Shown piece after piece: positions 10,181 through 58,724 of a DNA stretch of 64,000 bases; within the stretch, counting starts at the first letter, position 1, and the number at the start of each line of letters is the position of its first letter. Source of the stretch: a virus. The notes beneath the pieces are model-generated. The model did not search any database. It was not told the DNA's origin and saw only the letters and a list, made by a program, of their open reading frames with translations. Location: IMG/VR virus record IMGVR_UViG_3300032236_001859, positions 124,001 through 188,000 of that record; one strand, given 5' to 3'. A program made the position numbers and the translations under genes.

Positions 10181-10182
10181 GA

Positions 10183-13619: not shown

Positions 13620-13820
13620 TTACTTCTGAGCAGCCTGTGCAGCAGCGAAGGCGTCGAGGCGTTCATGTGCAGCCTTGGCGAGACCCTTGACTTGGTCATC
13701 ACTGAGTCCCATGCCACGCGCGGCTTCGTAGAAACCGAGGTCAACGGCGTTGGCGCCATCGACTTCGTCGGCGGCTGCCAGCTTTTTGAGGAGGACGTCT
13801 GAGGCAGACTTGGATAACAT
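13620..13820 (-). CDS. Small helical protein
   Basis: 66 residues from MLSKSASDVLLKKLAAADEV. A longer frame upstream overlaps the end of the preceding gene; the ATG at 13820 is chosen because AAAAGGA sits about eight bases before it. The protein is a compact set of helices ending in an Ala/Gln-rich tail (DAFAAAQAAQK), with a Lys-x-Ala motif near the N-terminus (LLKKLAAAD) and another in AKAAHE. It might be a small structural or assembly protein. Nothing identifies its function. Confidence 0.6.
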   Translation of the reverse strand: MLSKSASDVLLKKLAAADEVDGANAVDLGFYEAARGMGLSDDQVKGLAKAAHERLDAFAAAQAAQK

Positions 13821-13854
13821 GGTGGATTCCTTTTCTGGGAAATTGAAGACGGCC

Positions 13855-16107
13855 TTAGCCGTCCATGGTGGAGTTGATGCCGAGACCGTAGAACTCGGGG
13901 TCCCCGGAGAGCGTGCGCTTGCGGAGGAAGATGATGAGATCACCGAGGCCCTCGAACGAGGACTTCAGGTTGTCACCGAGTTCAACGCTGTCTTCCTTGC
14001 CGAACTTTTCCTGGAACTCGTCGTAGTGCCAGTGCATCAAGAACAAGATGCGACCGAGGCGATCCATACCAGCAACAATGGTGGGCAGGAAGCGTTCGAT
14101 CATTTCGACAGGGGCATGAGTCTTGGTCAGGCTACCGAGGACAGCGGAATCGAAGACTTCTTTTTGACCCGTCTTCGCGGCTTGGTCGATGGCCTGGAAG
14201 GGGTCACCGCCACCTTCGTTCTCGGCGTCGCCGTGACCAAAGGGGGAGAAGTATTGGTATTGCTGGCGGTTGTCGGGGGTCTGGGAGGTCCGCGCCTGGG
14301 TTTCCCAGGGCACCTTGGTGGTATGGAAGCTGGACATCACTCCACCTTCGGAGGTGTCATTGATGTCCGGGAACGCCATCATGTTCTCAGACGCCGCTTG
14401 CTTCACCAACCAGTTCTGCGGGGCACGGAGGGCGTGGCGAAGCATGCTGCGGGTGTCGGATTCCGAGCACCCATGTTTCTTCATGAGATAACTGATCGCA
14501 GCTGTCTTCCCGAAGTAGTGGCTACCAAAATCATCCTTGATGTTGATGCCGGTTTCATCAGTCCAGACTTTAACAGCACTGGCCTGCTTCTTGAGGACTT
14601 CGATGATGGTGTTGTGGTCACCGAAGTCAGAGGCCTCGAGATGTTTCTCGAGACGGGTCTTCTCCCGGTTCTCCCAATCCAACTTGGCGTCGTCTTCACG
14701 GTTACCGTAGACCACAGCGGTGTAATACTTCGAGTTCACGTACAGCGTCGAGTTCGTTTTCTTGAGATCACGGTTTCCGGCTTCGGAGACAATGACCTGA
14801 TCGCAGTCGTGTTCACCAATGTAACCCAAGGGGCGGTTGATGGCGAAGACTCCACGATCCTTGTGGGCAAAACGCTCGGGGATCGAGCGGAGATCCCAGG
14901 TGGAACCCCCGTGGGTCTTATAGGTCGTGATGCCGTCATCACTGACCGCGGTGAAGACATCCAGGGGAGCCGAGGTCTTCACACCATCTTTGGCGACGAA
15001 GATGACTTGATCACCGGGGCGCACCTTGTTGGCGGCAACGCTGACCTTCTCGAGTTCCTTGGCAAAATCGGTTTCAGTGTACTGCCGCAGTGTTGAGATC
15101 GCACCAACTGCGGTGATACAAGTTTTCTCATCAGAGCACCGGATCACGAAAACCCTGCCGTTATCCGATGACATCGGGATCACAAGTGTGGGTTCCACGG
15201 AACCATTGGCGTAGAGGACATCGTAGAGTCCACCACCAGTAGGCGACGTCAGCTGCTGCTTGGTCTGGGTCGAGTACACAATGGACTTCGACATCTCAGG
15301 ACGCTTGTCGACAACTGCGACGTCACCTTCGAGGATCTGCTTGCGTTGGGCATCAGTGAGTTCATCGACGCCTTCTTGATCAATGGTCGAAATCACAGTG
15401 ATGGGCTCACCCTTTTGTTCCGCGGCGAGTTTAACAACACCGGGGACCCCGAAGGCGAGATCGGGGTAGAACTTACGAACCGCATTGGCGAGTTTAACAT
15501 GCCCTGCGGTCTTCGGGTTCACAATGGTATCCATGAACATCGAGGCGACATCGTGGCCCAGGGCTTCGATACCACTGGGGAGATCCACGGCACCCGCGAT
15601 CTTGCGGATATGTGTGATCTTGTGGATGGGAACCACAGGGCAGTCACCGGCGGCCTTGCGGGCCGCGGCACGCTTGGACAAACTGCTGCCGCCACCATCG
15701 CCATCATAAATACCAGCGGGCAATGTGCGGAGACGGTTGTAATCTGGGGTGCGTACACCACGTTGGACCCGGTTGCGTTTATCGGCTTCACCGAGAACAG
15801 TGGGGCGGCGATTGATGATGGAATTAACCCAGTCTTCACTCAAGGGCACGAAGAGATCTGAGTTCACGGAATAAATGGAGTCGAGTCCCTTGATCTCCCC
15901 GTTGAGGAAGAACACGGGGCTGTAATGCCAGTCGCCACCGATCTCAAAAGCGAACATGCCAACTGCACGACCGCCATCTTCATCGGCATCAATGAGTTGA
16001 AACCCGACGAGATAGTCGAGGAGAACCGGTGACTTATCACGGAGTCTGGCGTTGGCGAGGTCAGAGAACGTCTGCTCCAGCGCGGACTCAGAGGTATCTT
16101 GCGGCAT
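13855..16107 (-). CDS. 750-residue protein next to RNA polymerase beta-prime, unknown function
   Basis: Start MPQDTSESALEQTF with AGGAG eight bases upstream. The N-terminal domain (1-115) has a distinctive block: SPVLLDYLVGFQLID, AVGMFAFEIGGDWHYSPVFF, LNGEIKG, LFVPLSEDWVNSIINRRP. I have an impression of this block from virion proteins of other large phages but cannot name the family. The middle contains Lys-x-Ala motifs (VKLAAE, IRKIAG, HVKLAN) and mixed alpha/beta sequence; the C-terminus is helical and acidic. No catalytic site was found. The gene directly follows the beta-prime C-terminal gene in transcription order, so an association with the polymerase or head is plausible but unproven. 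Confidence 0.75.
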   Translation of the reverse strand: MPQDTSESALEQTFSDLANARLRDKSPVLLDYLVGFQLIDADEDGGRAVGMFAFEIGGDWHYSPVFFLNGEIKGLDSIYSVNSDLFVPLSEDWVNSIINRRPTVLGEADKRNRVQRGVRTPDYNRLRTLPAGIYDGDGGGSSLSKRAAARKAAGDCPVVPIHKITHIRKIAGAVDLPSGIEALGHDVASMFMDTIVNPKTAGHVKLANAVRKFYPDLAFGVPGVVKLAAEQKGEPITVISTIDQEGVDELTDAQRKQILEGDVAVVDKRPEMSKSIVYSTQTKQQLTSPTGGGLYDVLYANGSVEPTLVIPMSSDNGRVFVIRCSDEKTCITAVGAISTLRQYTETDFAKELEKVSVAANKVRPGDQVIFVAKDGVKTSAPLDVFTAVSDDGITTYKTHGGSTWDLRSIPERFAHKDRGVFAINRPLGYIGEHDCDQVIVSEAGNRDLKKTNSTLYVNSKYYTAVVYGNREDDAKLDWENREKTRLEKHLEASDFGDHNTIIEVLKKQASAVKVWTDETGINIKDDFGSHYFGKTAAISYLMKKHGCSESDTRSMLRHALRAPQNWLVKQAASENMMAFPDINDTSEGGVMSSFHTTKVPWETQARTSQTPDNRQQYQYFSPFGHGDAENEGGGDPFQAIDQAAKTGQKEVFDSAVLGSLTKTHAPVEMIERFLPTIVAGMDRLGRILFLMHWHYDEFQEKFGKEDSVELGDNLKSSFEGLGDLIIFLRKRTLSGDPEFYGLGINSTMDG

Positions 16108-16136: not shown

Positions 16137-18041
16137 TTAGCGAGGGGATCGCGGAGGGGAAGTCGGTAGCGGCGGCGTGCCATAAGCCCCAGTGGTCTTC
16201 AGGGTATCACCGAAACCGGTGGCCTTGGCAAGGGCGGGGACATAGCTGGTTGAGTTGGGATCGGATACCCTGGAGCGGTGCACGCTGTCAAGGAACCCTG
16301 ACGAGGTATAGAAACCGGAGAGCCTGGTCTGCCAGTCATTGTCATTGTAGACCCCCATGACCCCACGTTGCATCACGGGCTGGAAGTCGGGGTCATCATC
16401 ATGGGCATCGACATCCTTGATCCCCCACTTCTGGAGATCGGCGGATACCTTCTTGGTCACCCGGGTCCCCGGGGTGTAGTGAAGCACGGGCTCCTCGAGA
16501 TACTTCCCAACCGCCGAGTTCGGGGCTACCCGCTTGGTACCCGCTCTGGCCTTGTAGGCCCCGGCTACCGAGTTGTAGGAGGCAACATCATCGACGACGT
16601 GTTCCCCGATACCATTGGGGTTGGTGACCTTGACCCAGTTGAGTAAGCCGGCGACCACGGTTTCGATGTTCCTGCGATGGGTCTTGATGCCGTGGTTGGT
16701 CAGGGCCTCCTGCAGCATCTCAGCATACCTGCGGCGAGCCTCGCCGATACCGCGAAGCCTGACGAGCTGCTCGGGATGCGGGGCACCATCAGAGATGTCA
16801 TCCCCGGCTTCCAGGGTATCCCCTGGTTTCACCACGGGTTCGATTTCGGGGTGGAGATAGTAATCACGATCCCCCACGGTGACGAACTTGCCGCCCTGGG
16901 GGGCCCCGCGGATCCCCTTGACGACACCATCGACCTCGGCGAGTGGACCCGCCTCTGGGAATGTTTCTGGTGATTCTATAACACGGTTGAGATACTCAAA
17001 ACCCATGCGGAGATTCCGCTTCCCACCAATGACCCCGCTTTTGTGCTTTTCGTTTAAGGTGGCCTGGGATAGAGGGGCTCCAACACTCTGCGCAGCCGAG
17101 ATCCCAATGGGATCCCCGACATTGCTGAGTTCGGTGCGATCCCGACGACCCGCGGCGACACGGGAGACACCGCCGTCCTCAGAGGGCTCCGTCATCGGAC
17201 TGTGGACCAAGATGTCTTCGATGCCATCCTCAGATAACGATTCGAGGATATCCGCGGTGATGCGATCGCCGGCCTTGTGAGCCCCGGCATCCTTGGCGAG
17301 CACAGCACCGATGTTGTCGGCATCGCTGACCTTGGTAGGTAACCCCACGGGTAACCGGGTCATCGGGGGAGTATCTTTGTTGACGACGATGCGATGTGCG
17401 GCATTCGCCAACTTTTTTGACAAAAATCCGGCATCAGCTGTTGACATTTTTACCGCAATCATTCCGCGACGTTGCCCATAGGTCCCCGCCCAGTATTCCA
17501 CGGGATCCAAGCCCTCGCTGAGACTGTGGAGAATGGGAATCGGTACGATTTCATTGCGGTGGTCATTGACCAACCCGGAGGCCCCTCGGATCGCGTTGTA
17601 ATCCGACATCTTGCCGCGAGCACCAGATTTGACCTGGAACCAGTACGGGTTGTTCTCGGCTTCACCGGATTCCTTGAGGGCCTCCTGCATCTTCTCGACC
17701 ATGGGAAACATGACATCAGTGATGGCTTGCTTCTTCGCATCGGGGTCGAGGTCTGAGGTCTCAATGGCCATGACCCTGGAGCGAGCCCGCTGGATCAGCT
17801 TTTTCTCTTTGTCTGTTTTCTTGAGCCCGCTGAGACTGACACTGACGCCCTCGGTGAACGCGGCATCCCTGCCGACATCGTTCATCGTTTTCAGGACTTC
17901 CTTGTAACGCTCGGGGTACTTCTCGGCGACATGCCTAAGAATTGGCATCAGCTCTTTTTTGTCGATGGCTTTACCCCGGATCTGCATATCCGGTGGCAAG
18001 CTGTCATTGAGCAAAAGGGTGCCGACGGTGGTGGGATCCAT
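16137..18041 (-). CDS. rpoC: RNA polymerase beta-prime subunit, C-terminal part (split)
   Basis: 634 residues colinear with the second half of bacterial beta-prime. Residues 4-75 match the region after the active-site domain (TTVGTLLLNDSLPPDM, EGVSVSLSGL). Residues 133-155 contain the SGARG motif (139-143). Residues 176-220 are the bridge helix (YGQRRGMIAVKMSTADAGFL). Residues 309-340 are the trigger-loop region (GDPIGISAAQSVGAPLSQ, then TLNEKH with the conserved His). Residues about 375-500 match the C-terminal domain (GDDISDG, LVRLRGI, then IETVVAGLL). The N-terminal half with DFDGD is on the fused subunit encoded five genes upstream; together they make a complete catalytic core. The gene overlaps the metallopeptidase-like gene start by one base. 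Orthology is clear; virion packaging is inferred from location. Confidence 0.93.
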   Translation of the reverse strand: MDPTTVGTLLLNDSLPPDMQIRGKAIDKKELMPILRHVAEKYPERYKEVLKTMNDVGRDAAFTEGVSVSLSGLKKTDKEKKLIQRARSRVMAIETSDLDPDAKKQAITDVMFPMVEKMQEALKESGEAENNPYWFQVKSGARGKMSDYNAIRGASGLVNDHRNEIVPIPILHSLSEGLDPVEYWAGTYGQRRGMIAVKMSTADAGFLSKKLANAAHRIVVNKDTPPMTRLPVGLPTKVSDADNIGAVLAKDAGAHKAGDRITADILESLSEDGIEDILVHSPMTEPSEDGGVSRVAAGRRDRTELSNVGDPIGISAAQSVGAPLSQATLNEKHKSGVIGGKRNLRMGFEYLNRVIESPETFPEAGPLAEVDGVVKGIRGAPQGGKFVTVGDRDYYLHPEIEPVVKPGDTLEAGDDISDGAPHPEQLVRLRGIGEARRRYAEMLQEALTNHGIKTHRRNIETVVAGLLNWVKVTNPNGIGEHVVDDVASYNSVAGAYKARAGTKRVAPNSAVGKYLEEPVLHYTPGTRVTKKVSADLQKWGIKDVDAHDDDPDFQPVMQRGVMGVYNDNDWQTRLSGFYTSSGFLDSVHRSRVSDPNSTSYVPALAKATGFGDTLKTTGAYGTPPLPTSPPRSPR

Positions 18042-19096
18042 TATGCAACTACCCTGCCATGCGGCATTTTAACCCTATTATTCTCACCGTCCTCACTATC
18101 CCCCTCCTCTGCATCATCTGCAACCGTAAGCGACTTGTACACTAGATATGCAAGAAGACTCGCTGCCCCTACTCCAGCTACACCCACCCCAACGGTGCCG
18201 AGTATATCATTTAGCGTACGCTGAGCTCCTAACGACTTCGGCGCTGGTAATGACCCTGAGCCTAATCCAGAGTCACCTTCAGTCACACTAGATGGGTTTG
18301 TATCTGTCTTAATTAGATTCTGATCTTTATTTTTATCCCCATCTTCTATGTGCCCCAGTATCTGTTGTACTCGTTTGTTGTTCGCTTCCATTCGTTCACG
18401 TATTTGCTCGTTCTGATAGTTATCATACTGCGCACCAACTCCGTTTACTTTTTCGGATTTCAACCAGTCACGGTAGGACTTTGCTAGTGATGTATCCCCT
18501 CGAAGATCACCCATGAATGTCTTAACTGCATCTTCGCGCTGTGCTGGTGTCATATCGGGCTTGAACTGCGGCCCATATTTCGAGATGTGGTCATATATCC
18601 AAGGTGCCCCTGCTGAGCCATTCGGGGGCCTGTCACCATTCGATAATGAGTATGCAGTCTCAGCCACCACCGCTGGAACCTCGGCCTCCATGGTTTCGGT
18701 AGGCATGCGCTCATTGTAGTGCGCCAACTCGTGCATGAGAACGTCATTCTGCGCGCTTTTACCATCTGGTGTGTGCAGCTCAATTTGATGTTCAGACGGA
18801 TACGCATCTGGGCGCAGCCAGTTACGCAAGCTCCATTTCTGGTTTGAATTACCTACGGTGCCTATGGACTGCGTAACATTGGCCTTCCCAGTGTATGGTA
18901 CCTGAACGCTGTCAGGTTTCTTATCAGGCCAATCAGCTGATCGAGTAAATGGTGGAGTAACAACTTTACGGCCCTTTATTATATCATCTCCTGGGATAAC
19001 ATCCCTGCCACCAGTGTAAATCATTTCCGCAGTTCGCTCCAATGTCGCAGCAACCTTAGAGCACAAGAAATGAAGGGCCTGGGCGGGAGTCAACAT
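18041..19096 (-). CDS. HExxH metallopeptidase-like protein with C-terminal membrane anchor
   Basis: 351 residues. The N-terminus carries the recurrent motif (FLCSKVAATLE). Residues 122-126 are HELAH in a helix context (LMHELAHYNERMPTETMEAEV), with Glu residues about 15-20 positions later that could be the third zinc ligand, as in zincin proteases. A Lys/Asp/Asn-rich linker follows. Then comes a Gly/Ala/Leu membrane segment (about 305-325, VGVGVAGVGAASLLAYLVY) followed by KS and a strongly acidic tail. It lies between the two polymerase genes. The region is visibly AT-richer than its surroundings. A zinc protease role is plausible; a structural protein with a chance HExxH cannot be excluded. 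Confidence 0.65.
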   Translation of the reverse strand: MLTPAQALHFLCSKVAATLERTAEMIYTGGRDVIPGDDIIKGRKVVTPPFTRSADWPDKKPDSVQVPYTGKANVTQSIGTVGNSNQKWSLRNWLRPDAYPSEHQIELHTPDGKSAQNDVLMHELAHYNERMPTETMEAEVPAVVAETAYSLSNGDRPPNGSAGAPWIYDHISKYGPQFKPDMTPAQREDAVKTFMGDLRGDTSLAKSYRDWLKSEKVNGVGAQYDNYQNEQIRERMEANNKRVQQILGHIEDGDKNKDQNLIKTDTNPSSVTEGDSGLGSGSLPAPKSLGAQRTLNDILGTVGVGVAGVGAASLLAYLVYKSLTVADDAEEGDSEDGENNRVKMPHGRVVA

Positions 19097-19314
19097 TATC
19101 GACCCCCGGTGCGGATGACCTCAACGGGGGTTGGCGTCAAACCAAGTTTGCGAACCGTGGATGAGAAATCTGACTTCGTGGCATCGGTATGTGCAACCAA
19201 TCCGTTTTCCTCATAGGACAACGCCAGGGGTTGTCCGAAGTCATCTGTAACAATGACCTCGGCAACGCTGATGTGGATCTGGCGTCCATCGGAGAGGCGG
19301 ATGCGGGCGCGCAT
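19096..19314 (-). CDS. Small beta-rich protein
   Basis: 72 residues from MRARIRLSDGRQIHIS. An earlier in-frame ATG lies inside the preceding gene; the ATG at 19314 lies two bases past that gene's TAA and is preferred. The N-terminal half is an SH3-like or small beta-barrel pattern (RARIRLSDGRQIHI, AEVIVTDDFGQPLALSY). No metal ligands or catalytic residues are evident. It overlaps the next gene start by one base. Function unknown; it is part of the tight run between the polymerase genes. Confidence 0.6.
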   Translation of the reverse strand: MRARIRLSDGRQIHISVAEVIVTDDFGQPLALSYEENGLVAHTDATKSDFSSTVRKLGLTPTPVEVIRTGGR

Positions 19315-19315
19315 G

Positions 19316-20233
19316 TTACCTCGATGCCAAAACTGGAGCAGTTGAACTCTGAGGGGCCACTGGGGTATCCGCGAGAACTGGGGCTGTTGCACTCACCGGA
19401 GGCTTTTCGCCATTAACGGTGACAACGCCCTGACCGGCAGCCGGGGTCTTCCCTTTGCCGTAGCCGAGGCCGGCGCGACGATCCATGCCAGGCATCGAGT
19501 ACACGGGTTCCTTCTTCGGAGCACTCGCAGCAGCCTTCGAGAACCCCAGACGAGCCAGGAGTTCCTTGGCCATCTTCACGGTGTTGCCACCGATTGCGCT
19601 GGGGTCGAGTTGGCCACCTAGGGAACCCATGGGGCCCCCACCACCTTGGGGTTGCCCGGAGACCGCACCAACAGTTGCGGCGGCGTCGGCATCTGACTTC
19701 TTGCCCTTGTTCTCTTGTTCCTTCTTCTTGCCTTCTTGTTCGAGATCGAACTCGGCCTGGGCTTGTTCTTTGGTACGCCCTTCGCCGATGGAGGCCATGG
19801 CGCGTTCAACGATGTCCATGACAACGTCGGCTTGGCCACGGGTCACGGCGTCATCAGGGGTTCCCTTGACGTCAGGGGTTCCTGGAGCCGTGGGGTCCGC
19901 ACCTGCGCTGGGGTCGCCACCTGCTGAGGGGTCTTCACCACCGATGGCACCGAGCATGTCGCCACCAGGGGGCATACCACCTGCGGCAGCGGGATCGCCA
20001 CCAGGAGGAGCTCCGGCAGCACTGGGATCACCACCACCAGGTGGCATGCCACCCATGGCAGAGGGATCGCCACCAGGAGGCATCGGAGGGGCCCCTGCAG
20101 CTGCGGGGTCACCCCCAGGAGGTGCACCGCCAGCTGCGGAGGGATCACTGCCCGGAGGTGGTGCTGCTACAAAGGCTCGCTTCTGTGCGAACTCGTTGAG
20201 GCCTCGTTGAAAAAGTCTTGCGGAGATATCCAT
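19316..20233 (-). CDS. Pro/Gly-rich low-complexity virion-type protein
   Basis: 305 residues. A short helical N-terminus (ARLFQRGLNEFAQKRAF) is followed by about 90 residues of PPGGDPSAAGG-type repeats. A helical, Glu/Lys-rich segment with a coiled-coil look follows (EQAQAEFDLEQEGKKKEQ). The C-terminus holds a Lys-x-Ala pair (VKMAKELLARLGFSKAAAS) and an extended Pro/Ala tail. Such glycine/proline repeats are usually flexible linkers. It lies between the two polymerase subunit genes and is probably a virion or assembly protein. No family is recognised. Confidence 0.68.
   Translation of the reverse strand: MDISARLFQRGLNEFAQKRAFVAAPPPGSDPSAAGGAPPGGDPAAAGAPPMPPGGDPSAMGGMPPGGGDPSAAGAPPGGDPAAAGGMPPGGDMLGAIGGEDPSAGGDPSAGADPTAPGTPDVKGTPDDAVTRGQADVVMDIVERAMASIGEGRTKEQAQAEFDLEQEGKKKEQENKGKKSDADAAATVGAVSGQPQGGGGPMGSLGGQLDPSAIGGNTVKMAKELLARLGFSKAAASAPKKEPVYSMPGMDRRAGLGYGKGKTPAAGQGVVTVNGEKPPVSATAPVLADTPVAPQSSTAPVLASR
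19889..20167 (-). repeat. Coding PPGGDP(S/A)AAG repeat tract
   Basis: At least seven imperfect copies of a Pro-Pro-Gly-Gly-Asp-Pro-(Ser/Ala)-Ala unit lie in frame within the preceding protein, spanning about residues 23-115. The DNA repeats track the protein repeat with synonymous variation, so this is an expanded coding linker, not a CRISPR or intergenic repeat. Confidence 0.8.
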
Positions 20234-20283
20234 GTTTCACCTTGGGGAGTCTAGTGTTACTTGACCACACCTTCAATCAAAGT

Positions 20284-21021
20284 TCATAGAAAAGCACTGG
20301 CACCTGGGGGAAGATTCTCAACAGGGGGCGGGGTTGTTGGCTTTGGTGCAGGCCTCACAGCATCACTGATTGCACCCATGCCTTCACGGATCTGGGGTAC
20401 TGCTTTGTCGACATGGGGACCGGCGACATAACCAGCGGCACCACCGGCGAGGGCGGCGAGCAGGGCGTTACGCCACTTATTCTTCTTACTCAGCAGAGCT
20501 GCACCCCCACCAGCCAAGGCTGCACCGGTAACAGCACCGATGTTCGCGGGATCCTTGTAGAACGGAGTCGCCGGAGCGGCATCTTGTGCGGTCTTTCGCC
20601 CAGCGCCTTGAATGGGTTGCAGCTTTGGCTTCACCACTGGAGTCGTCGCCGACTTCGGTGGGTTCTGTGCCTTGAAGAGTTGATTCCGGAAGTCTTCGTT
20701 GATGCCTTTGGTGTTGTCTTCGATAACAGCGGCCTTCTTGGCAATCGCGCTGGCACCAGCTCCGGAAAGAGCACCGAGACCTTCACGGATCTGGGGTACT
20801 GCTTTATCAACATGTGGTCCTGCGACATAACCAGCGGCACCGCCGGCGAGAGCTGCGAGAAGTGCATTACGCCACTTGTTCTTCTTACTCAACAGGGCAG
20901 CACCACTACCACCAATGGCAGCACCAGCGGCGGCTCCGATATTTGCGGGGTCTTGGTAAAACGGGACCTCAGCGGCGGCTACTTTGGTGAGGAGTGCGGC
21001 GAGAAGACGTGTGGACTGCAT
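20284..21021 (-). CDS. Glycine-zipper protein with a duplicated module
   Basis: 245 residues. After a head-type N-terminus (LLAALLTKVAAAEV) there are two near-identical modules, residues 21-86 and 154-219. Each starts FY(Q/K)DPANIGA, contains ALLSKKNKWRNALLAALAGG and ends AGPHVDKAVPQIREG. The Gly/Ala-rich stretches resemble glycine zippers or membrane-associated helices. A Pro/Lys linker separates the copies and the tail is Pro-rich. The gene ends about 50 bases before the PPGGDP protein starts and follows the fused polymerase gene closely. The role is unknown; the duplication is clear. Confidence 0.75.
   Translation of the reverse strand: MQSTRLLAALLTKVAAAEVPFYQDPANIGAAAGAAIGGSGAALLSKKNKWRNALLAALAGGAAGYVAGPHVDKAVPQIREGLGALSGAGASAIAKKAAVIEDNTKGINEDFRNQLFKAQNPPKSATTPVVKPKLQPIQGAGRKTAQDAAPATPFYKDPANIGAVTGAALAGGGAALLSKKNKWRNALLAALAGGAAGYVAGPHVDKAVPQIREGMGAISDAVRPAPKPTTPPPVENLPPGASAFL
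20365..20961 (-). repeat. Two copies of a 66-residue module
   Basis: Copy 1 lies at 20764-20961 and copy 2 at 20365-20562, each encoding the FY(Q/K)DPANIG ... QIREG(L/M)GA(L/I)S module in the same frame. They are nearly identical in protein but diverged at synonymous sites, which suggests an old duplication kept by selection. Confidence 0.85.
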
Positions 21022-21030
21022 GGAGTATTC

Positions 21031-24000
21031 CTACTTGTGGTTATGGGATGACAGGATAACAACTGGATCGGCGACACCAAGATCCCCCCTGAGGTAGGCC
21101 TTGTAGGCATCCTCCTTGGAGGCAAAGGTTCGCGTGGGCTTATCTTTCTTGACATTGGTGGCCAGGTAAAGCCCGGCGAGGTAGTCTTTATCAGGCTTCA
21201 AGTGAACATCGAAATCAGCGGGATGCCAGAGATTCTTCGAGGGCATCATCTTCTCGATGACATCTTGGACAGCGGAATGATGGGATGGCACATGAAGATT
21301 GATCTTGTCGCCATCGAAGTCGAGGTTCGCCCCGGGTTCGACGACCTGGGGGACCCCAATGTTGTTTCCCTTGGAGAGCACTGGCCAGGCCCCCACGTAA
21401 TTGTACCGCTGGAGTGCCGGGGCGCGATCCCAGTAAACCGGGCGTGCCTTCATCTCGGCCTGGAGTTCACGGAGCGCCGCTGGCTTCTGTTCCCGGACAG
21501 CCATGACGGCTTCACGCGCACTCCACCCTGATCTGACGAGGCGACGGATGACATAGGGGCGATACAGGGTCCACGCCATTTCCTTGGGGATCGAGACCTG
21601 ATCCATGTCGAGTTCGGGATCCGGGGTGGCCACCCCGCGCCCCACGGAATCCACGGCTTGACCGAGAACCTTGCGTTGGAAACGCGCAAACTTGGGGGAG
21701 TCGCCAACACCAATGGCGTTCTGGAGAAGTCCTTTGACGCCTTGTTCGACATGCTTGGGGTTGACAGGGGCACCGAGACCAGCCACGGCTTTGGCAGCCG
21801 CATACATGGCCCCGTATTCCTCACCGGCGTCACCAAAGGCCTTCTGGGCATCTGTGTAATTCTTCCCGGACTCCATGAGGTCGTGGTAGAGATAGTTGGC
21901 ATCGTGGATGATGTCCATCTTCCCCGCACGTATAACAGGTCTGAACTTCGGTGGTATAACGGGGATCTTGGAGATCATGAGATCACCGGGATCCACCCCT
22001 GCAGACTTCAAACCACTGAGATAGTTGAGGGCACGGACGTGGACATCACGGGATGACTTCGATCCCGTCTTGACCCCCTGGACGTGCATGGCGATTTCAC
22101 GGTCAACATTGATCCCCTTGAGAGCAGTCTCAATGGCTTCTGGTCCCGTTTTGTCACCAATCTTTTCCTGCCCGCTGAGAACATCGAGGAACTTCTGCTT
22201 GGTGAGCCCAAGGATCCTGATGATGGGTTCTTCCATAACTGGATTCGGGATCTTCTGGGGGAGCTCAATCCTGGTGAAGTGGCGTCCATCGGCACCACCA
22301 GTTTTGGCGAGATCGAAGAGGCCGCCATCCTTGGGCTGCATGGTCTCGAAGTCAAAAGTCTCCGAGCTGGAGACTGAATGCGGGGCCAGGGCGTCGGTGT
22401 CGGCATCCGTCATCGGGGCCAACTTCAGCCGGCCCTGGTTCTCGCGAACATTGACCCCAGCCCCCTTGAGGAGATCGAGGAAGTGACCATGGGCTCCAGA
22501 GGCCTCAGGCATCGCGGGATCCATCCCAAGTTTCACTGAACGCCAGTAGTCGTCATTACGCTGCCCCCTGATGAGCTTGGCGTCCTTGAGAACATTGGTG
22601 GCCCCAGCGCTGAGCAGGCATTGGACACCGAGAAGCGCGATCTTCTTGCTGCCCTCGGGGCCACCCTTGGCAGGGGAATCATCAGAGGTGTAACCCCCGG
22701 TATCACGTGCGGCGAGCCCGGACTCCGCGGTGTGGTGCAACCGCATGAGATGCTGGACCCCAGTGAAGATGCCCTTGATCTTATGACCAGTCTTGGGATC
22801 CGTGACATCGTCGAGTTCAGTGATCCCATTGACCTTGGCCTCATTCAGGGCGAAGTCACCGAGATCATCGTGATCAAAAGATTTGAGAACATACGGCTTC
22901 CCGGTTTTCCTGGCAACCTTACCCAGCAGGGTTTCAGCGAGCACCGAGGGGTTCGCACGAGAGATCACGCCCAAGGAGTTCACGATGATGTCCAGGGGCT
23001 TGCCATCCGGACCAATAGGCATCTCACCATCGGGTACGATCTGGGAGACCACACCCTTGTTGCCGTAACGTGCGGTGAGCTTGGATCCCTCAGTCATGGG
23101 CTCCACGCTGGAGATCATGACCTTGATCCCCTTGCGGGTTCTCACGACATCAGTGACCTGGCCGGGAGTCGAGTGATCCCAGGTCTGCGAGGCATCGGCG
23201 AATGCAGACCTCGCCGAGGGGGTAACAACCCCACCAGGTCTCGGGGTCTTCTTGCGCACCGCGAGGAGCACGGGATCCCCGGGCTGCACAATGGCACCCT
23301 CTTTGATCACTCCGTCATCATCAATACTCGAGATCTGCTCTGGTTTATACTTGCCTTGGAAGATCGAGGAGTAATCCGCTTTCTTCGTGGAATGAATGTG
23401 CTTGTCGAGTTCGAGCTCATGTTTGTAGGCATGCTGGGATGACAGTCGTCGAGCCGTGGACTCCGAGATCTTGAAGCCGTCTTCATAGGTGTGCCCGGAG
23501 CCCACCATGTAGCCCACGTTGAAGTTGGCCCCCATGGTGGCCTGACCCTTGTCATCAGTAAAGTTCGACTTCGCTAGGACATCACCTGGCTTGAAGGCGT
23601 CGCCTTCTCGGACCAATGGAGTGTTATGCAAACTTGTTTTACGCGCCAAGGGGTAGTTGTTATACAATTCGTGGCGCTCTTTTTTGCCACCGGCGTAGAC
23701 GACATCGATGTGGTCTGGTGTTACCGCAACAACACGGCCAGGGGCCTTGGCCTTCACGGCACCCATCCAGACCCCCATGGAATCATGTATTGAGTTACCA
23801 TCGGGGTTCGAGGCCTGGACTAAGGGGGCCTCAGGTGATTGTAATGGGAGGGCCTGTGACGTGTTATGAACTACTACACACGCACCACACATAAACACAT
23901 TATCTTCCATGTCCAAGTCATACACGTACGTATATTGTTTCACATCTAATTCTTCTATGGACTCTACACGATCCCACCACACATCCGAGTCTAACCACGC

Positions 24001-26886
24001 AATGCTGGCTGCGTCCTCCCCCAAAAGTGTGCGTACGCTTTCCCTTGTTAGCTGGTTACTGTAAATACGCTTGTACTCCCGGCTTCCTCTACGCGTGTGC
24101 GCCCGCAGACTAGCGTCGAGATTTGGCCACCTTGGGAACCAGTCCGCTGATTTTTTGCCAGACCATCTTGCAGCTCTTATCCTTAAATCCTTTCGTTCGC
24201 AGTGCAGTGTAGGGAGTCTACTTACATGTTCAGTGCGTACCTCAAAATAATGCTGAATAGCATGAGATCCACCTGGTCCAGTCATAACATGTGTAGCGCT
24301 TCTGTTGCACATTATACCCATCGTTGCGCATAGGTTTACAAAACCATCTATCAATTTACCGCTTCTGCTGCTACCGTTCACACGCACAGCATCTCGGCGA
24401 GGTTGCACCCCACCATCTCCAGCAAGGTACCCAGCTAGAAGTCCACGCCGAAACTCTAAAGGAGCAAAAAAGACCCAGCCAGGTAGCACCTTGTTGTAAG
24501 CCCCAGCACCGTAATCACTGCTAATAGCAGATGCGAATTGCGCCCAGCAAACATTGACTTTATCCATCTTGCCATCTACGCGACCACTAAGCACAGAAGC
24601 ATTTACTCCTATGTTTCGGAAGTATTCAAATAATTTATTCAGAACATCAGAATCACAGTTTGCGAAACTGACTGCTGATGCAAAAAACTTGTGTCCATCT
24701 CTGTGCGCATGCACTAAACTACCCTCTGCGATGTACATACCATGCACCCACCCAGTTTCGTAATTTAGTGGTAATGCCGCAGTTGGATACGCATTATGCT
24801 TTCTGCCTGCGGCTACTACCCAATCGGTGCGATCGCATCTGCTATCGGGAATCTTACCCACAATCGGTACTGGCACCCCTCTGGTGAGATCCTGTGTGTG
24901 TACCTTAGTAAGACCCCCATCTTCTCCAATAGTGACAAAGCTGTGATCATCAGTCGCATTTACATGACGCCCACTCTTCAATGTGACTTTTTTGATTCGC
25001 TTTACATTCAAATGCTTGTCTAAGGCCCGTACACGCCTCCATATCACTTTGGATGTGGTCTTATCGACCGACACAGCACAGTCCCCTTCAGCGTGCACGT
25101 AATCTTCAATTAGTCCGTAATAATGCTCGCCATTATCACGCCTAATCAAAACAGGAGTGTCTCCAGTTACTGACATCCTTGCACCCATCAGGGTTCGCTG
25201 CGACTTCGCACCTTGAGTCATCGGCACCATGTTGGTGAGCCGGGAGAACATCGAGGAACCATGGGGGAGTTCGTAGTCGACCTCTGTGGCAGGCTTCCAC
25301 TTGATGTCCTCACCATCGAGAACACGCACCATCGGGGGCAATGGCTTCCCGAGACCGTGCATACCCACTGACGCCGAGATCTCGGGATCATTGGCGATGT
25401 CATTCATGTCGACGACGTGATCCTCGTATTTACCGTTGGCCCCCATCAAGGGTACCTTGTAGAGTTCCCTCTTCGCCGCCTTCGCGAACTCACCTGGGAA
25501 TGCAATCGGCTTCTTGGAGGCCTGGAGTGCTGAAAGCGTGATATCCTCACCCTTACGGGAGCGGACCTTGAAATAGAGCCGACCATCGGATCCCTTGAGA
25601 GCACCATCGGTGACCCGCATGTCGACGCCGATGTTCTGACCTTCAGGTGCCCGGATGGGATCTATGATACCAAAGTAACTGGGTTGGACGCCACGTGCGG
25701 ATCGCGGTACGGCCTGATTGGAGGAGATTCCACCTTCACCAAGCCGTGTTATAGTCTGCCGGGCATCCATGATTTCCATGGGGTTGGTGTCTTCAACTGA
25801 AGCCATGAGCCCACTTTGGAAAACGCTGTCCACTGCTGGGTTCAGGAGTCCTGGGGATACGTTGCCGAGGTTGCCTTCACGTGTGGCCCGCCATAGCAGT
25901 TTTCTCATGGCGTCGCCGCCACGGCTCAGGCGCTCCTCGAAGAAGTCCTCGGGGCCATGAAAGCTCTGGAAGGCCTGGGAGTCCCGGACGTCATCGGGGA
26001 CCTCATCGCGACTCCGCTTCAACATCTTGGATGTCGCGTTCAACATGGTATCAATGTTGAAGTTCTTATATTTGGTGCCTAAAGTGGTCTCCGTGGTTTC
26101 CTCGTCGAGCTCGGCTCTTCCCAGGATCTCATGGAGTTTGTCTTTGAGGGCTTCGCTGGCGACTTCTTGGTCACCTCGGCGTCCCATCTTGGCTACAATC
26201 TTTCTGGCCTCCTGGGCGTCATGCCCACCCGGAGGTCTCCAGTTCAGCTTGAAGAGTTCGTCGCCCCATGCCGCCTTGATGGCGTCATCGGGGACCCCCA
26301 TCGATCGCAGCAAGGGGTACAGCCGGGTTCCACTCTGACCCACGTTTAATTTGAACACACCTGTTGAGGGCTCGAGCTGGAGATCGAAACCACGGCCACT
26401 ACCTGGCTTCGGATTCACCTGTGCCTTGACGTCCCCGTTCTGTTGCCGGAGCACGAAGACCCCGGGGCGCAGACGCTGCTGGTTCTTAGCCGCCCAGATG
26501 GTGCCACCGCGAACAAAGATGCCACGCGGGGTCAAATGGGGGACATGTGCAAGAGTTGTCTCGGTTTCATCGACGACTTGGCCGGATGCTTTATCGATGA
26601 GGCGGACGTTGCCCTTGATGGCGCGCTGCATGCTCTGCCGAGCCATCAACGCTTTCTTTTCATCACTGAGGCTAGGGTTGTAGTCCTGGGCATAATCAGG
26701 GTTCGAGATCTCGACCCGGTACTTCTCGTTCTCCACTGGCTTCAGGGCACGGACCCCACGCAGGGCATTGGAGTAGATGGCGTCGCGTTGTCCGCTGACG
26801 TCATCAAAGCTCCTATAGGTCACCGGAGGAACGGGACCAGGGCTCCCCGAGGGGGCATCAAATGCACCTTTGAGAGCACCCAGCAT
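21031..26886 (-). CDS. rpoB: RNA polymerase beta / beta-prime N-terminal fusion, intein-containing
   Basis: 1951 residues from MLGALKGAFD; the ATG at 26886 is two bases past the preceding stop, and an earlier in-frame ATG lies inside that gene. Extein segments are colinear with bacterial beta: the LMGARM/TSQALPLQSPEAP junction (E. coli LMGANMQRQAVP), then DGFKISES, then GSKLTARYGNKG ending at Lys1277 (E. coli GDKMAGRHGNKG), then the beta C-terminal clamp (DTGGYTSDDSPAKGGPEG). Without a stop it continues into beta-prime: GLFDLA, IPPKFRPVI, RPVYWDRAPALQRYN and the catalytic DFDGD (1856-1860), ending about 90 residues later. A 437-residue intein occupies residues 572-1008; the spliced product is about 1514 residues. 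Such a fusion is uncommon; I know no sigma or alpha partner here. Confidence 0.93.
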   Translation of the reverse strand: MLGALKGAFDAPSGSPGPVPPVTYRSFDDVSGQRDAIYSNALRGVRALKPVENEKYRVEISNPDYAQDYNPSLSDEKKALMARQSMQRAIKGNVRLIDKASGQVVDETETTLAHVPHLTPRGIFVRGGTIWAAKNQQRLRPGVFVLRQQNGDVKAQVNPKPGSGRGFDLQLEPSTGVFKLNVGQSGTRLYPLLRSMGVPDDAIKAAWGDELFKLNWRPPGGHDAQEARKIVAKMGRRGDQEVASEALKDKLHEILGRAELDEETTETTLGTKYKNFNIDTMLNATSKMLKRSRDEVPDDVRDSQAFQSFHGPEDFFEERLSRGGDAMRKLLWRATREGNLGNVSPGLLNPAVDSVFQSGLMASVEDTNPMEIMDARQTITRLGEGGISSNQAVPRSARGVQPSYFGIIDPIRAPEGQNIGVDMRVTDGALKGSDGRLYFKVRSRKGEDITLSALQASKKPIAFPGEFAKAAKRELYKVPLMGANGKYEDHVVDMNDIANDPEISASVGMHGLGKPLPPMVRVLDGEDIKWKPATEVDYELPHGSSMFSRLTNMVPMTQGAKSQRTLMGARMSVTGDTPVLIRRDNGEHYYGLIEDYVHAEGDCAVSVDKTTSKVIWRRVRALDKHLNVKRIKKVTLKSGRHVNATDDHSFVTIGEDGGLTKVHTQDLTRGVPVPIVGKIPDSRCDRTDWVVAAGRKHNAYPTAALPLNYETGWVHGMYIAEGSLVHAHRDGHKFFASAVSFANCDSDVLNKLFEYFRNIGVNASVLSGRVDGKMDKVNVCWAQFASAISSDYGAGAYNKVLPGWVFFAPLEFRRGLLAGYLAGDGGVQPRRDAVRVNGSSRSGKLIDGFVNLCATMGIMCNRSATHVMTGPGGSHAIQHYFEVRTEHVSRLPTLHCERKDLRIRAARWSGKKSADWFPRWPNLDASLRAHTRRGSREYKRIYSNQLTRESVRTLLGEDAASIAWLDSDVWWDRVESIEELDVKQYTYVYDLDMEDNVFMCGACVVVHNTSQALPLQSPEAPLVQASNPDGNSIHDSMGVWMGAVKAKAPGRVVAVTPDHIDVVYAGGKKERHELYNNYPLARKTSLHNTPLVREGDAFKPGDVLAKSNFTDDKGQATMGANFNVGYMVGSGHTYEDGFKISESTARRLSSQHAYKHELELDKHIHSTKKADYSSIFQGKYKPEQISSIDDDGVIKEGAIVQPGDPVLLAVRKKTPRPGGVVTPSARSAFADASQTWDHSTPGQVTDVVRTRKGIKVMISSVEPMTEGSKLTARYGNKGVVSQIVPDGEMPIGPDGKPLDIIVNSLGVISRANPSVLAETLLGKVARKTGKPYVLKSFDHDDLGDFALNEAKVNGITELDDVTDPKTGHKIKGIFTGVQHLMRLHHTAESGLAARDTGGYTSDDSPAKGGPEGSKKIALLGVQCLLSAGATNVLKDAKLIRGQRNDDYWRSVKLGMDPAMPEASGAHGHFLDLLKGAGVNVRENQGRLKLAPMTDADTDALAPHSVSSSETFDFETMQPKDGGLFDLAKTGGADGRHFTRIELPQKIPNPVMEEPIIRILGLTKQKFLDVLSGQEKIGDKTGPEAIETALKGINVDREIAMHVQGVKTGSKSSRDVHVRALNYLSGLKSAGVDPGDLMISKIPVIPPKFRPVIRAGKMDIIHDANYLYHDLMESGKNYTDAQKAFGDAGEEYGAMYAAAKAVAGLGAPVNPKHVEQGVKGLLQNAIGVGDSPKFARFQRKVLGQAVDSVGRGVATPDPELDMDQVSIPKEMAWTLYRPYVIRRLVRSGWSAREAVMAVREQKPAALRELQAEMKARPVYWDRAPALQRYNYVGAWPVLSKGNNIGVPQVVEPGANLDFDGDKINLHVPSHHSAVQDVIEKMMPSKNLWHPADFDVHLKPDKDYLAGLYLATNVKKDKPTRTFASKEDAYKAYLRGDLGVADPVVILSSHNHK
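23863..25173 (-). mobile_element. LAGLIDADG intein in the RNA polymerase gene
   Basis: 437 residues inserted between LMGARM and TSQALP of the beta region. It begins with Ser in the block A context SVTGDTPV. Block B is NATDDHSF (His77). Two LAGLIDADG helices, HGMYIAEG (144-151) and LAGYLAGDG (246-254), both keep the acidic residue. Block F is YTYVYDLDMEDN and block G is GACVVVHN, with terminal Asn and +1 Thr. All splicing and endonuclease motifs look intact, so it probably splices and homes. Its DNA is visibly more AT-rich than the exteins, consistent with acquisition from elsewhere. Confidence 0.93.
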
Positions 26887-26887
26887 A

Positions 26888-31800: not shown

Positions 31801-34498
31801 CCGTGGAGATCAGGGAATCAAATGGATTCCCCTCCCCCTTTTCCAAACTGTCGACATCGATGACACCTGCTTTGAAAGGTTCGGCTTTCTCCTTCATGAT
31901 GTTAAACGCGCGATCACCAATTGTACTCGCCAACATCAATCTGAGGTCCGGTGGTAATCCGGCGAATATCGGGTTGTCTTTAACGGTACCATTCGCGAAC
32001 TCGATTGCGCCCTGCATGAGCTTGGCGTCGACCAGCATCTCGGCACCTTTTTTGTAACCGGCACCAACTGCGTTCAGCTTGCTTTCATCGCCACCTTGGT
32101 TGATGTATGCCGCCTTGCCCTGCCGAACCGCGAAGGCCTGGAGGGGGCTCAGGGTGGTCCCCCAGAACCCCATACCTTTGCCACCATTAGCGAACGTGTT
32201 CTGGGCGACCTCGGCGATCTTGGAGTCATCGTATGACGAGGACCCCGAAAGCATGCCGTAGCCCCATCTCCCGATATCCATCGTAGACGAGACGCCCTCC
32301 ATGATGATCGCACCGGCTGCGGTGTTCACGCTCAGAGCACGAACCCCCTTGAGGACTGAACCCAGTTTAACAGCTGCGGAGGCCCCTGTGGCCGCAGGCG
32401 CCCCGCCTGGGGTTGACGTGAGCACCCTGGCAGTGGACTTCATGCGATCGAGAACACTACCATATGCCTTGGATGCCGCTGCACCGGGATCTGCTACTGT
32501 TTTGGCAACACTGCTGCCGGCACGGGCTAGGGCACCACCAGCGGCCTTTGTGGCCTCAACGGGGTGGGCTACCGAGCTATAGATTTTACTGACTACCTTC
32601 AGTGGACTCGCCCCAGGTGGGGTCTGGGCCTGGACAGCGTTCTGTGTCGCCTTGTCGAGCCCCCGCCACCAGAGTTGCTGGGCACCAAAGTGCGCGGAGG
32701 TATCAATGGTCTGCTCCCCGATCTGGAGAGCCGAGCTCTTTATCCAATCAGCAACCGGGATGTCTTTGTTTGTGGGGTTGTTCCACCTGTTATAGCAGGC
32801 ACCGCCGACGCCGGCCAAAGTGGCCATGATGGGGAGCCCGGCGATGCTGCCATGCCGGGACATCAGCGCTGATGCCATGAGTCCCGTGTTCTGCGCCGTG
32901 TTTCCGAAGTTGTTGTGGTCCCTGAGTTCCCGGTAGAGGTCCGACCCCGGTTGGATCTTCTGATCCAGAATGGAGTTCACCCTGGCCTGGGCGGCATCCA
33001 CGGGTAACCCACGGACTTCTTGGAGTGCGTCTTGGATCTCTCGAAAATGGTTGTGATAGTTGATTACATTGGGATCACTCCCCACGATCTTCGCACCCTT
33101 TTTGTCGATGCGATTCGTGTTGAGATCCTGCGGCATAAAAGGAGCCGCCGCAGGAGTGCATGACCCAAGTTTCGGTAAGAACAATTCAACGGGGACGTCA
33201 AGCCAGTTCGATAGCGACGACGCGGTTTCCGCAGCAGGACGCGTCCCCGTGCTCACCATGTCGTAGTGGTCACGGACCCTTCGCAGGATATGATCGGCTT
33301 CGAGTCCCGCACGGATCCCGGATTCATTCTTAACACGGGTGAAAACGGATCTCGCGGCATCAACTGCTCGCTCCAGGAACTCTGGGCTCTTCTCGCTCCA
33401 TTGCTTGATCTCAGCGGGGTTCTCAGGGATCCCCATCTTCAGGAACTCTGTGGCCATGGCATGCGCGGGATTCAAGGGATCCCCAGCAGCAGCCTTCATA
33501 CCCGTGACGACATCCGCGATGAATCCAGCGCGAAGACTGGAACCGAGCTCACGGGATTCCGGGGAGTCCGGGTTCTCGACAAACGCGGCTAAGGCGGCCT
33601 CAGGGTTGATACCCTTCTTCGCGGTATCGACTCGATACGCCTTCAGGGCCTCGGCGAGATTGGAGGGCTTCCCGGTCCTCTCGGATTCCAGGATCGCAGC
33701 ATTCGCTGAGGTCAGGAGATCGGGTTTGCCATCCTCTGAGTTCAAGAGAACAGGGAGTCCAGTTTTCTTGTGGGCGTGGTAGCCCACGGCGAGATCGATG
33801 ATGTCATGGGAAGCCTTATCCGCGGAGGCCTTGTTCCAGAGATCCCCGGTGGCCCCGGTTTCGGCCTGCCATGATCTAATGATTTTATCCGTGGGGGCCC
33901 CTGCTGCCCTCCCATTTGCCCAGGCCTGTGCGGCGAAATAACGCTTGGCCATCCAGTCCTTGGCAGCGGCATCCGGGTTGGGTCCATCCAGTTTTGGGGG
34001 TGGTGCCCATCGGGAATCAAACTTGAAGTCGCCATCTTTGGCTTCGGCATCAGACGACAGCATGTCCACGTATTGATCTCGGACCCCTGGAGACAACGTC
34101 TTCGGGATCGAGGTGAGCTCAGGGGCCATCGTGGCGGCGCCAGCGTTGACCTGTTTGGTGAGCTCCTTCGAGGGAGTCTTTCCACCCGCAATGGTATCAA
34201 CGAGATCGCTGACCCCAGGGATTCGCATGGCACCAATTGAGGTCAGGGCTTCGCGGGCCTTATCGGGGTAGTTCTTGATCCAGAGATACCCCGCGGCACC
34301 GAGACCACCGATGGCTGCCAACCAGATCCAGGAGTCAGACTTCTCGTCATCCTCGTCGTCATCAGGGGCCCGTGAATGCGCGGCGAGTTTGCGTGTCTTC
34401 CCATGCCCAAAGAAATTGGGGGTGTTGTTGCGGAGTTCCTCAATGGGAAAATGAGCACGTCTGGCTTTGACGTGCTTGATTTCCTTCTTGGGCTTCAT
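28823..34498 (-). CDS. Giant 1891-residue virion-type protein next to the portal
   Basis: The longest gene apart from the polymerase. It begins with a basic segment (KARRAHFPIEELRNN), a K-x-A motif (RKLAAHSR), an acidic cluster (DDDEDDEK) and one Trp-led hydrophobic segment at about 55-75 (WIWLAAIGGLGAAGYLWI). A very long, mainly helical body follows, with Gly/Ala runs around residues 650-760. The C-terminal 300 residues are Pro/Thr/Lys-rich linker with Pro-rich repeats (TPPQTPPQTPPPG), a second hydrophobic stretch and a globular end. No peptidoglycan-hydrolase or transglycosylase motif was recognised. It overlaps the portal stop by four bases. It may be an internal or ejection protein; tape measure is less likely given the composition. 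Confidence 0.7.
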   Translation of the reverse strand: MKPKKEIKHVKARRAHFPIEELRNNTPNFFGHGKTRKLAAHSRAPDDDEDDEKSDSWIWLAAIGGLGAAGYLWIKNYPDKAREALTSIGAMRIPGVSDLVDTIAGGKTPSKELTKQVNAGAATMAPELTSIPKTLSPGVRDQYVDMLSSDAEAKDGDFKFDSRWAPPPKLDGPNPDAAAKDWMAKRYFAAQAWANGRAAGAPTDKIIRSWQAETGATGDLWNKASADKASHDIIDLAVGYHAHKKTGLPVLLNSEDGKPDLLTSANAAILESERTGKPSNLAEALKAYRVDTAKKGINPEAALAAFVENPDSPESRELGSSLRAGFIADVVTGMKAAAGDPLNPAHAMATEFLKMGIPENPAEIKQWSEKSPEFLERAVDAARSVFTRVKNESGIRAGLEADHILRRVRDHYDMVSTGTRPAAETASSLSNWLDVPVELFLPKLGSCTPAAAPFMPQDLNTNRIDKKGAKIVGSDPNVINYHNHFREIQDALQEVRGLPVDAAQARVNSILDQKIQPGSDLYRELRDHNNFGNTAQNTGLMASALMSRHGSIAGLPIMATLAGVGGACYNRWNNPTNKDIPVADWIKSSALQIGEQTIDTSAHFGAQQLWWRGLDKATQNAVQAQTPPGASPLKVVSKIYSSVAHPVEATKAAGGALARAGSSVAKTVADPGAAASKAYGSVLDRMKSTARVLTSTPGGAPAATGASAAVKLGSVLKGVRALSVNTAAGAIIMEGVSSTMDIGRWGYGMLSGSSSYDDSKIAEVAQNTFANGGKGMGFWGTTLSPLQAFAVRQGKAAYINQGGDESKLNAVGAGYKKGAEMLVDAKLMQGAIEFANGTVKDNPIFAGLPPDLRLMLASTIGDRAFNIMKEKAEPFKAGVIDVDSLEKGEGNPFDSLISTVIGTSKPKGNAPPGVDVATWDRQNKSAGQLKGLFNVLGDRDLRDIARTSVAATHERVGTTVRDALDTSPLYQHLPSEYKDQLSQRAQDYWKSQTDSIVNSMESAKSHEELKSALSQVSTTLAPATQQINEFSTGMGFGEKPRFDISQNSPHAIHKGVQGILGTLLRPQDTQELGSPEITKMVTETTGLSPEQIMAKARVKTTDYTDVMKPKMLQRGEIRKQEIIDDLKKNGLGDLLIEYRGSDRASEKYSWGGKTYGGPGDPTNSRYGFDSTGNDSLKNQRIVLEDRREAAKAAAYQRLNVDPKDPNAELIFNTKVSRLPENAAKEILAPLTRANASLYTLNQDVRSQGGHHLGGGPGMIERFKDNTFVNPAQTQKLLQELGEKYGFDKVEPPTAQGRYYVDTKGNAHDLAGDQEPPQGFKAQEYGFDSSKWDPRADNTPAWTFNKTTGRVTQVSPEAIRRGYQVESPLTNPGLYLSGISRYQTAHPEHWAAKSPDTYKNMEAYWRQHQAKAGAPANPFEPTPDYIIGDNGLPTRFIGEGDAARPVTREDVVSHIQGNPAKYRGLFPETFRGNVAPMVAPGDPSQQSYHPEYWLAQAGGDRAKAMQAYEAHQKNLTKGATPAKTPEVPLPKEPANVKPTEIQPVKPLAKTMPPASGQNKIGADAIWSRGCKLAAAAMGEALTEGAKPAVTGVMNWANNLIGNPDQPPAPAPAQKTPGIGDMAKTYTNSIKTPPQTPPQTPPPGPESNTGTPALTQQEKADAVAKSNAAKQRTQTAQTTEPAKTTPNNPDAVKKEEPSVWDQAKAKAQEGMDWAQKYNLDLAAIPVGLGLMLMGGKAGAIMGALVLGGGAYGAYQRYQSLNNAGGEIPPPKDPNLLAEIQKDPKKMDDYRAKVVSQRLGAMRAASSNEGKWQQWMQAPDNAKFFGNLKMAHDYLPSFVKSRVQAADPAFKDLNDNQFEMMISGMTGGRIGKPEPNWGDSIGLAKNLASSKMGM

Positions 34499-58637: not shown

Positions 58638-58724
58638 ATAACACTCCATGTAGTCGTTGGTTTTTGTGTCACAGGGGTTACATCCTGTGGGGGTTTACTC
58701 TCAGTCAAGTCCGTTGGTGTCCGC

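Follow-up and report, generated by a model that had tools for sequence, protein, structure and literature searches.

We analysed a window of 64,000 nucleotides, bases 124001-188000 of the viral record IMGVR_UViG_3300032236_001859 (an IMG/VR-type metagenomic assembly of 216,043 bases in total, which may be incomplete), and found that positions 21031-26886 encode a complete RNA polymerase beta subunit that continues directly into the N-terminal half of beta-prime (beta'N), including the metal site. The C-terminal part of beta-prime (beta'C) is encoded by a second gene. We consider it likely that the two products form a sigma-programmed virion polymerase, which would be produced alongside the head proteins, enter the capsid, and be delivered to start phage transcription.

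Two genes encode a complete catalytic core

The open reading frame (ORF) of the fusion spans 21031-26958 on the minus strand, and its most likely start is the ATG at 26886, which was also used in a preliminary description of this DNA made from the sequence alone. That description had proposed a beta/beta-prime fusion, and matches to both subunits within the one ORF bear it out. Pfam domains Rpb2_6 (3e-38), Rpb2_3 (4e-7) and Rpb1_2 (9e-15) were found, along with Intein_splicing (1.2e-14), and a fusion profile built from intein-free relatives matched both solved bacterial subunits far beyond chance (beta 4e-109, beta-prime 2e-74). The beta'C ORF (16137-18041, minus strand) matched Rpb1_5 at 7e-19, and its family profile matched solved bacterial beta-prime at 1e-83, so that both proteins align with the products of bacterial rpoB and rpoC. 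The quoted beta and beta-prime motifs were present, with NLDFDGD in place of NADFDGD as the metal motif; NADFDGD is seen in several relatives. Across the fusion and beta'C, the catalytic aspartates, the basic residues of KLxxRYGNKG, the bridge-helix region and the trigger-loop region are all retained together with the bacterial beta and beta-prime domains, and the catalytic core is complete, as had been claimed (Table 1).

The beta-prime portion starts near window position 22368 with TFDFETMQPKDGGLFD, which corresponds to NYRT-KPE-GLF in bacteria. Bacterial beta-prime continues from there into an N-terminal zinc ribbon, which the fusion lacks; the second zinc site is without its cysteines in the lineage of the window, but many relatives keep them. 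AlphaFold models were confident both for the post-intein part of the fusion (943 residues, predicted local distance difference test score, pLDDT, of 88) and for beta'C (634 residues, pLDDT 86.7). The fusion model aligned to bacterial beta over ~540 columns and, separately, to a cyanobacterial chain of 617 residues, 9dvs_D, with a template modelling (TM) score of 0.61 by target length; we take 9dvs_D to be the rpoC1 product. The beta'C model aligned to bacterial beta-prime.

The beta'C profile matched the solved cyanobacterial second chain from residue 11-12 and E. coli beta-prime from residue 571, which places the break within or beside the loop at which beta-prime is split in cyanobacteria. 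Polymerases of phiKZ-like phages also break beta-prime there, after the first barrel (PMC7598289). The second gene had been placed five loci downstream of the fusion, and four genes do lie in between. This intervening DNA was rejected as an intron, since it holds four same-strand genes with homologs in relatives. We also rejected trans-splicing of the beta-prime halves by a split intein, as no intein-like sequence was found at the end of the fusion or at the start of beta'C. One of the four genes (20284-21021) encodes a 245-residue protein, whose translation shows a Gly-zipper-like segment duplicated almost perfectly.

The fusion is common to a phage family

Relatives were collected by scans of viral contigs and genome bins, followed by a survey with hidden Markov models (HMMs); the best 80 matches were retained per scan, and more distant forms may exist. 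We obtained 127 non-redundant phage sequences in which beta continues at least into the start of beta-prime; the fusion, at first regarded as unusual, is therefore no isolated oddity. Most of these (89) have beta-beta'N in one ORF and a separate beta'C; in a further 12, beta'C was not seen in the fetched stretch, in at least one because the contig ends. Beta, beta'N and beta'C were classed as a single ORF in 23, with L101 and L170 among them broken inside beta, and three sequences have three ORFs, one with beta and ~72 residues of beta-prime, another with the remainder of beta'N and a third with beta'C. Further breaks occur in a few members of the split class (L093, L136, L005). Single-chain forms are continuous in sequence through the break point. 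Among the matches listed, no surveyed relative encoded beta and beta-prime in the ordinary way, as two genes.

A mis-assembly or frameshift might produce a false fusion or a false split, and the record is a metagenomic assembly; the same layout is nevertheless seen in more than 100 other contigs and in the cultured Salmonella phage Arash, and in 93 split cases the two genes always lie on the same strand, 608-8434 bp apart. Independent contigs and an isolate thus refute an artefact, whose probability is practically negligible.

Complete beta and beta-prime in one ORF of ~2000-2200 residues without large insertions (up to 3010 residues with them) are seen in L066, L077, L081-L086, L092, L095-L098, L100, L103, L105, L150, L163, L165 and L184. 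Unfused beta and beta-prime genes lie near DNA polymerase genes in Yersinia phage YerA41 (L270) and Cobetia phage Carin-5 (L268), and beta-prime of YerA41 consists of two adjacent genes in this otherwise unfused enzyme. Two records, of a Staphylococcus and an Enterococcus phage (L264 and L266), were rejected as relatives with separate beta and beta-prime; their adjacent ordinary rpoB and rpoC ORFs are host-DNA-like in unverified records, and served as bacterial comparison only.

We built a tree from the 127 phage sequences and 13 bacterial sequences, a set without archaeal, eukaryotic, phiKZ or published mReC sequences. A clade with Arash and Vibrio phage D181, a single-chain clade and the main split clade, which includes the window, formed one group against the bacterial sequences with a support of 0.74. 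The Arash clade, all of whose members are split, branches first, and its break position is the same as in the main clade. This, and the match of the break site to the start of cyanobacterial rpoC2, would fit a beta-prime break inherited from an old split enzyme, with the halves rejoined in the single-chain forms, rather than a later break in a complete fusion. We hold such an order of events to be possible but somewhat doubtful: the outgroup is small and the support for the phage group modest, a recurrent break in a surface loop accounts for the data equally well, and YerA41 has its beta-prime in two genes within an unfused enzyme.

Inteins interrupt the polymerase genes

Directly after LMGARM in beta, the fusion contains a predicted intein, in which both a splicing domain and a LAGLIDADG endonuclease are recognizable. 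Its position would make splicing necessary for polymerase activity. The intein is absent from two relatives that are 93-96% identical in the fusion, and both of these carry inteins in beta'C, by the bridge-helix region in one (L002) and in the trigger-loop region in the other (L003). Family-wide, large insertions with intein-like ends are found at about a dozen sites, the DFDGD motif included; some of the listed insertions, near sites 232-268 and 586-593, are not intein-like.

One member (L025) has three intein-like insertions in the fusion and one in beta'C, and another (L149) has three, some of them directly at DFDGD. In phage D181 (L005, 11911-17479) a homing endonuclease gene splits the fusion at about the position of the intein of the window, and the fusion gene of phage D69 appears uninterrupted there. 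Elsewhere in the window, a large ORF (55227-58649, minus strand) resembles ribonucleotide reductase by eye, Pfam giving LAGLIDADG_3 only, and seems to carry an intein or endonuclease of its own.

A single polymerase and a sigma-like phage protein

The record contains one Rpb2_6 match and one Rpb1_5 match, and therefore no separate standard beta or beta-prime genes were found in it. Similarly, a single Rpb2_6 locus was present in all 41 genomes surveyed for polymerase copy number and sigma, some of which may be fragments; the two pieces in G012 share one ORF. The preliminary description had seen no alpha, omega or sigma. For the first two this agrees with our searches, as alpha (RNA_pol_L) and omega (Rpb6) had no match in the record at E<=1 (PF01000 was not tried, and the record may be a fragment).

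No sigma gene was found within the window. The record does, however, encode a divergent sigma-like protein of 354 residues outside it, at C1:88.5-89.6 kb, which matched phrog_351 at 1.5e-8 (4.5e-10 in the genome search). Its single-sequence Pfam matches fell below the curated cut-off. The protein and Arash Gp10 are members of one family (phmmer 7e-9; 4e-87 with the family profile), whose profile matched SigA at 7e-21; sigma regions 2-4 are recognisable. The second Arash sigma, Gp196, was rejected as its counterpart, the Gp10 family being the match. A phrog_351 sigma was found in 37 of the 41 genomes, often with two sigma genes per genome.

These results bear on whether the enzyme could be a divergent member of the polymerase type of the phiKZ and AR9 jumbo phages. 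The virion and non-virion polymerases of those phages likewise have no alpha or omega and a beta-prime broken after the first barrel, and one version is packaged (PMC7598289). However, they come as two polymerases per phage, split beta as well, and reportedly have no sigma (PMC7598289), whereas the family described here has one polymerase, an unsplit beta fused to beta-prime, a sigma gene, and strong profile similarity to the bacterial subunits. We therefore rejected membership in the phiKZ type, given the single polymerase and the sigma, and regard it as very improbable.

Orthologous proteins are abundant in Arash particles

Evidence for packaging comes from phage Arash, for which 116 proteins of purified particles have been listed (PMC10585845). 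According to this list, Gp206, the counterpart of the fusion, ranked first with 3516 spectra and 128 unique peptides; Gp216 (beta'C) had 1210 spectra, Gp10 (sigma) 467 and Gp218 1149, as compared with 1333 for the major capsid protein and 877 for the portal, and Gp196 was absent (PMC10585845). When divided by protein length, a rough measure, the listed spectra amount to 2.3 per residue for the fusion, 2.0 for beta'C and 2.0 for sigma, with 1.5 for the portal and 4.3 for the capsid protein. These values are compatible with a one-to-one-to-one complex and are no proof of it.

The authors discuss early transcription or carry-over and name Gp206 'subunit beta', the enzyme being presented as separate 'beta' and 'beta-prime' subunits; the part of the paper on which we draw mentions no fusion for Gp206 (PMC10585845). 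In its genome (OQ632216), Arash resembles the window phage in the two-gene layout, the break, the portal upstream, the capsid gene downstream and the sigma family. It differs in having no intein, a second sigma (Gp196), and a helicase gene (Gp217) after beta'C.

Taken together, the place of the polymerase and sigma among the main listed particle proteins suggests that such viruses may carry a transcription machine into the cell. The window phage is known from its sequence, and packaging in it would follow from homology with Arash. The earlier idea of a virion RNA polymerase is thereby strengthened for the window phage, through an ortholog that is the most-detected protein in the published particle list (PMC10585845).

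The enzyme might instead be made during infection for middle or late genes with a phage sigma and enter particles by carry-over alone, which we think unlikely. The Arash authors themselves name carry-over, and the frequent occurrence of two sigma genes per genome would suit staged promoter switching. Because the listed Arash proteins include metabolic enzymes such as ribonucleotide reductases (PMC10585845), abundant intracellular protein has probably been carried over to some extent. Against an exclusively intracellular enzyme, the fusion has more listed spectra than any other protein, the capsid protein included; its spectra per residue are similar to those of beta'C and of one of the two sigmas, the other sigma being unlisted; and the genes lie inside the head module, downstream of the portal on the same strand in 78 of the 79 loci in which both were seen (this count and that for the neighbour of beta'C below contain duplicates of some contigs). 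Several further points weigh against a sigma-programmed virion polymerase in the window phage. Spectra per residue are a coarse gauge, Arash is distant (29% identity in the fusion and 23% in beta'C), and the interaction of sigma with the core is presumed. In addition, sigma had no match in 4 of the 41 genomes, records that may be fragments, including the closest long relative (G001), and the lack in this lineage of two zinc sites typical of bacterial beta-prime could mean a functionally different enzyme.

The polymerase genes lie in the head module

The location among head genes noted previously was confirmed. The portal gene lies upstream of the fusion, and downstream of beta'C follow a Gp218-like protein and then the protease-like and capsid genes (Table 1). 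The Gp218-like protein of 750 residues had no PHROG match and, in a profile search, no PDB match; it may act together with the polymerase or in packaging.

Several proteins of the structural region (2843-3250, 13620-13943, 18041-19096, 20284-21021, 38425-39720 and 52093-52563) have at their N-terminus a short amphipathic stretch with K-x-A-A or a similar motif (for example LLTKVAAAE, LCSKVAAT, LVKVAAEA). Such starts could be a sorting or protease signal; neither polymerase gene was seen to begin in this way. Beside the capsid gene, at 3169-5018, a homing endonuclease-like ORF lies by an endonuclease VII-like ORF (two such domains).

Table 1. Positions of the polymerase genes, their parts and neighbouring genes in the window
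Feature	Position	Strand	Basis
Major capsid protein	5154..6092	-	homolog of Arash Gp226 and D181_0282
Head maturation protease-like protein	8780..10237	-	phrog_18299 5e-7; homolog of Arash gp222
750-residue protein just downstream of beta'C; homolog of Arash virion protein Gp218	13855..16107	-	homologs in 118 related loci
Beta-prime C-terminal gene, 634 residues (SGARG, bridge-helix region, trigger-loop region, C-terminal part)	16137..18041	-	Rpb1_5, profile, model
AAQSVGAPLSQATLNEKH, trigger-loop region, conserved His	17043..17096	-	motif landmarks
YGQRRGMIAVKMSTADAGF, bridge-helix region	17424..17480	-	motif landmarks
Four genes between the polymerase genes (351, 98, 305 and 245 residues)	18041..21021	-	homologs in close relatives
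Beta / N-terminal beta-prime fusion gene, precursor of 1951 residues (~1514 without intein)	21031..26886	-	Pfam, profiles, models, conserved single ORF in relatives
Beta-prime N-terminal half (clamp, lid region, first double-psi barrel)	21034..22368	-	Rpb1_2, bacterial comparison, fold match to 9dvs_D
LDFDGDK, catalytic aspartates chelating Mg2+	21304..21324	-	motif landmarks
Beta C-terminal part (TSQALPL...DGFKISES...GSKLTARYGNKG...clamp)	22369..23862	-	Rpb2_6 match, landmark positions
Predicted intein, 437 residues (Ser1, ends HN, then Thr; LAGLIDADG endonuclease), after LMGARM in beta	23863..25173	-	Intein_splicing 1.2e-14, LAGLIDADG_3 1.5e-6
Beta N-terminal part, to LMGARM	25174..26886	-	HMM alignment, landmarks
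Portal protein, upstream of the fusion	34495..36375	-	upstream on the same strand in 78 of 79 loci

Relation to known polymerases and proposed mechanism

Bacterial-type polymerases in tailed phages, virion polymerases, and cellular beta-beta-prime fusions are already known. In cyanobacteria, beta is separate and beta-prime has a large insertion; their split into gamma and beta-prime (rpoC1/rpoC2) lies at essentially the same place as the break in the window family. The polymerases of Helicobacter and Wolbachia have alpha and omega. Their fused rpoB-rpoC is a natural beta-beta-prime fusion like that of the window, but it is cellular and the whole of beta-prime is fused (PMC7483510, PMC1750930); an artificial E. 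coli fusion has been reported to be functional (PMC7483510, PMC1750930). The crAss-like phi14:2 gp66 and P23-45 enzymes are also phage-encoded two-barrel polymerases with known virion forms, but are highly divergent single chains (PMC10770324), and the crAss enzyme is not recognisable with bacterial beta and beta-prime profiles (PMC7481178).

The closest precedent in the literature is the mReC lineage of Caudovirales RNA polymerases reported by Weinheimer and Aylward in 2020, with bacterial-like beta and beta-prime in tailed-phage contigs and IMG/VR among its sources (PMC7481178). Its polymerases form a clade apart from cells, and its hallmark genes include the polymerase genes; its selection required NADxDGD (PMC7481178), and the window phage has NLDFDGD. 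A text search of that paper, which refers to beta and beta-prime subunits, gave no split, intein or sigma, and a fusion only for crAssphage. The Gp23-type capsid family PF07068, a feature of mReC, matched in none of the 41 genomes, and the control likewise matched nowhere. The window family is distinct from the phiKZ/AR9 and crAss types and probably overlaps the mReC lineage. We found no description of a phage beta/beta-prime fusion in the open literature searched. The suggestion of a new virion polymerase type holds for the architecture; bacterial-type polymerases in a Caudovirales lineage (PMC7481178) and the Arash proteins themselves had already been published.

We propose that the intein would splice itself out of the fusion before assembly, and that the fusion and beta'C would form the core with neither alpha nor omega. 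The covalent joint plausibly replaces alpha in holding the two large subunits together. Precedents for this idea are the fused E. coli and Helicobacter enzymes, which are reported to function (PMC1750930), and the AR9 polymerase, which has no alpha (PMC7598289). Promoter recognition would come from the divergent Gp10-type sigma. The holoenzyme may then be produced along with the head proteins and packaged in the capsid, and its delivery with the DNA would make phage transcription independent of the host polymerase. A stronger version, to which we give nearly an even prospect, is that the virion brings a pre-assembled holoenzyme of sigma and an alpha-free core held by the covalent joint, a self-contained bacterial-style initiation machine, also in the members with all parts in one chain.

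Known virion polymerases are minimal single chains or the sigma-less fragment sets of phiKZ-like phages. Within the family, beta-prime occurs naturally in unsplit, split and doubly split form, and inteins in the active-site motifs of the polymerase are unusually numerous. If the proposal is true, it would become testable whether the tether replaces alpha in assembly, how sigma works in an alpha-free enzyme, and how the enzyme enters and leaves the capsid; the cultured relative Arash opens these questions to biochemistry now.
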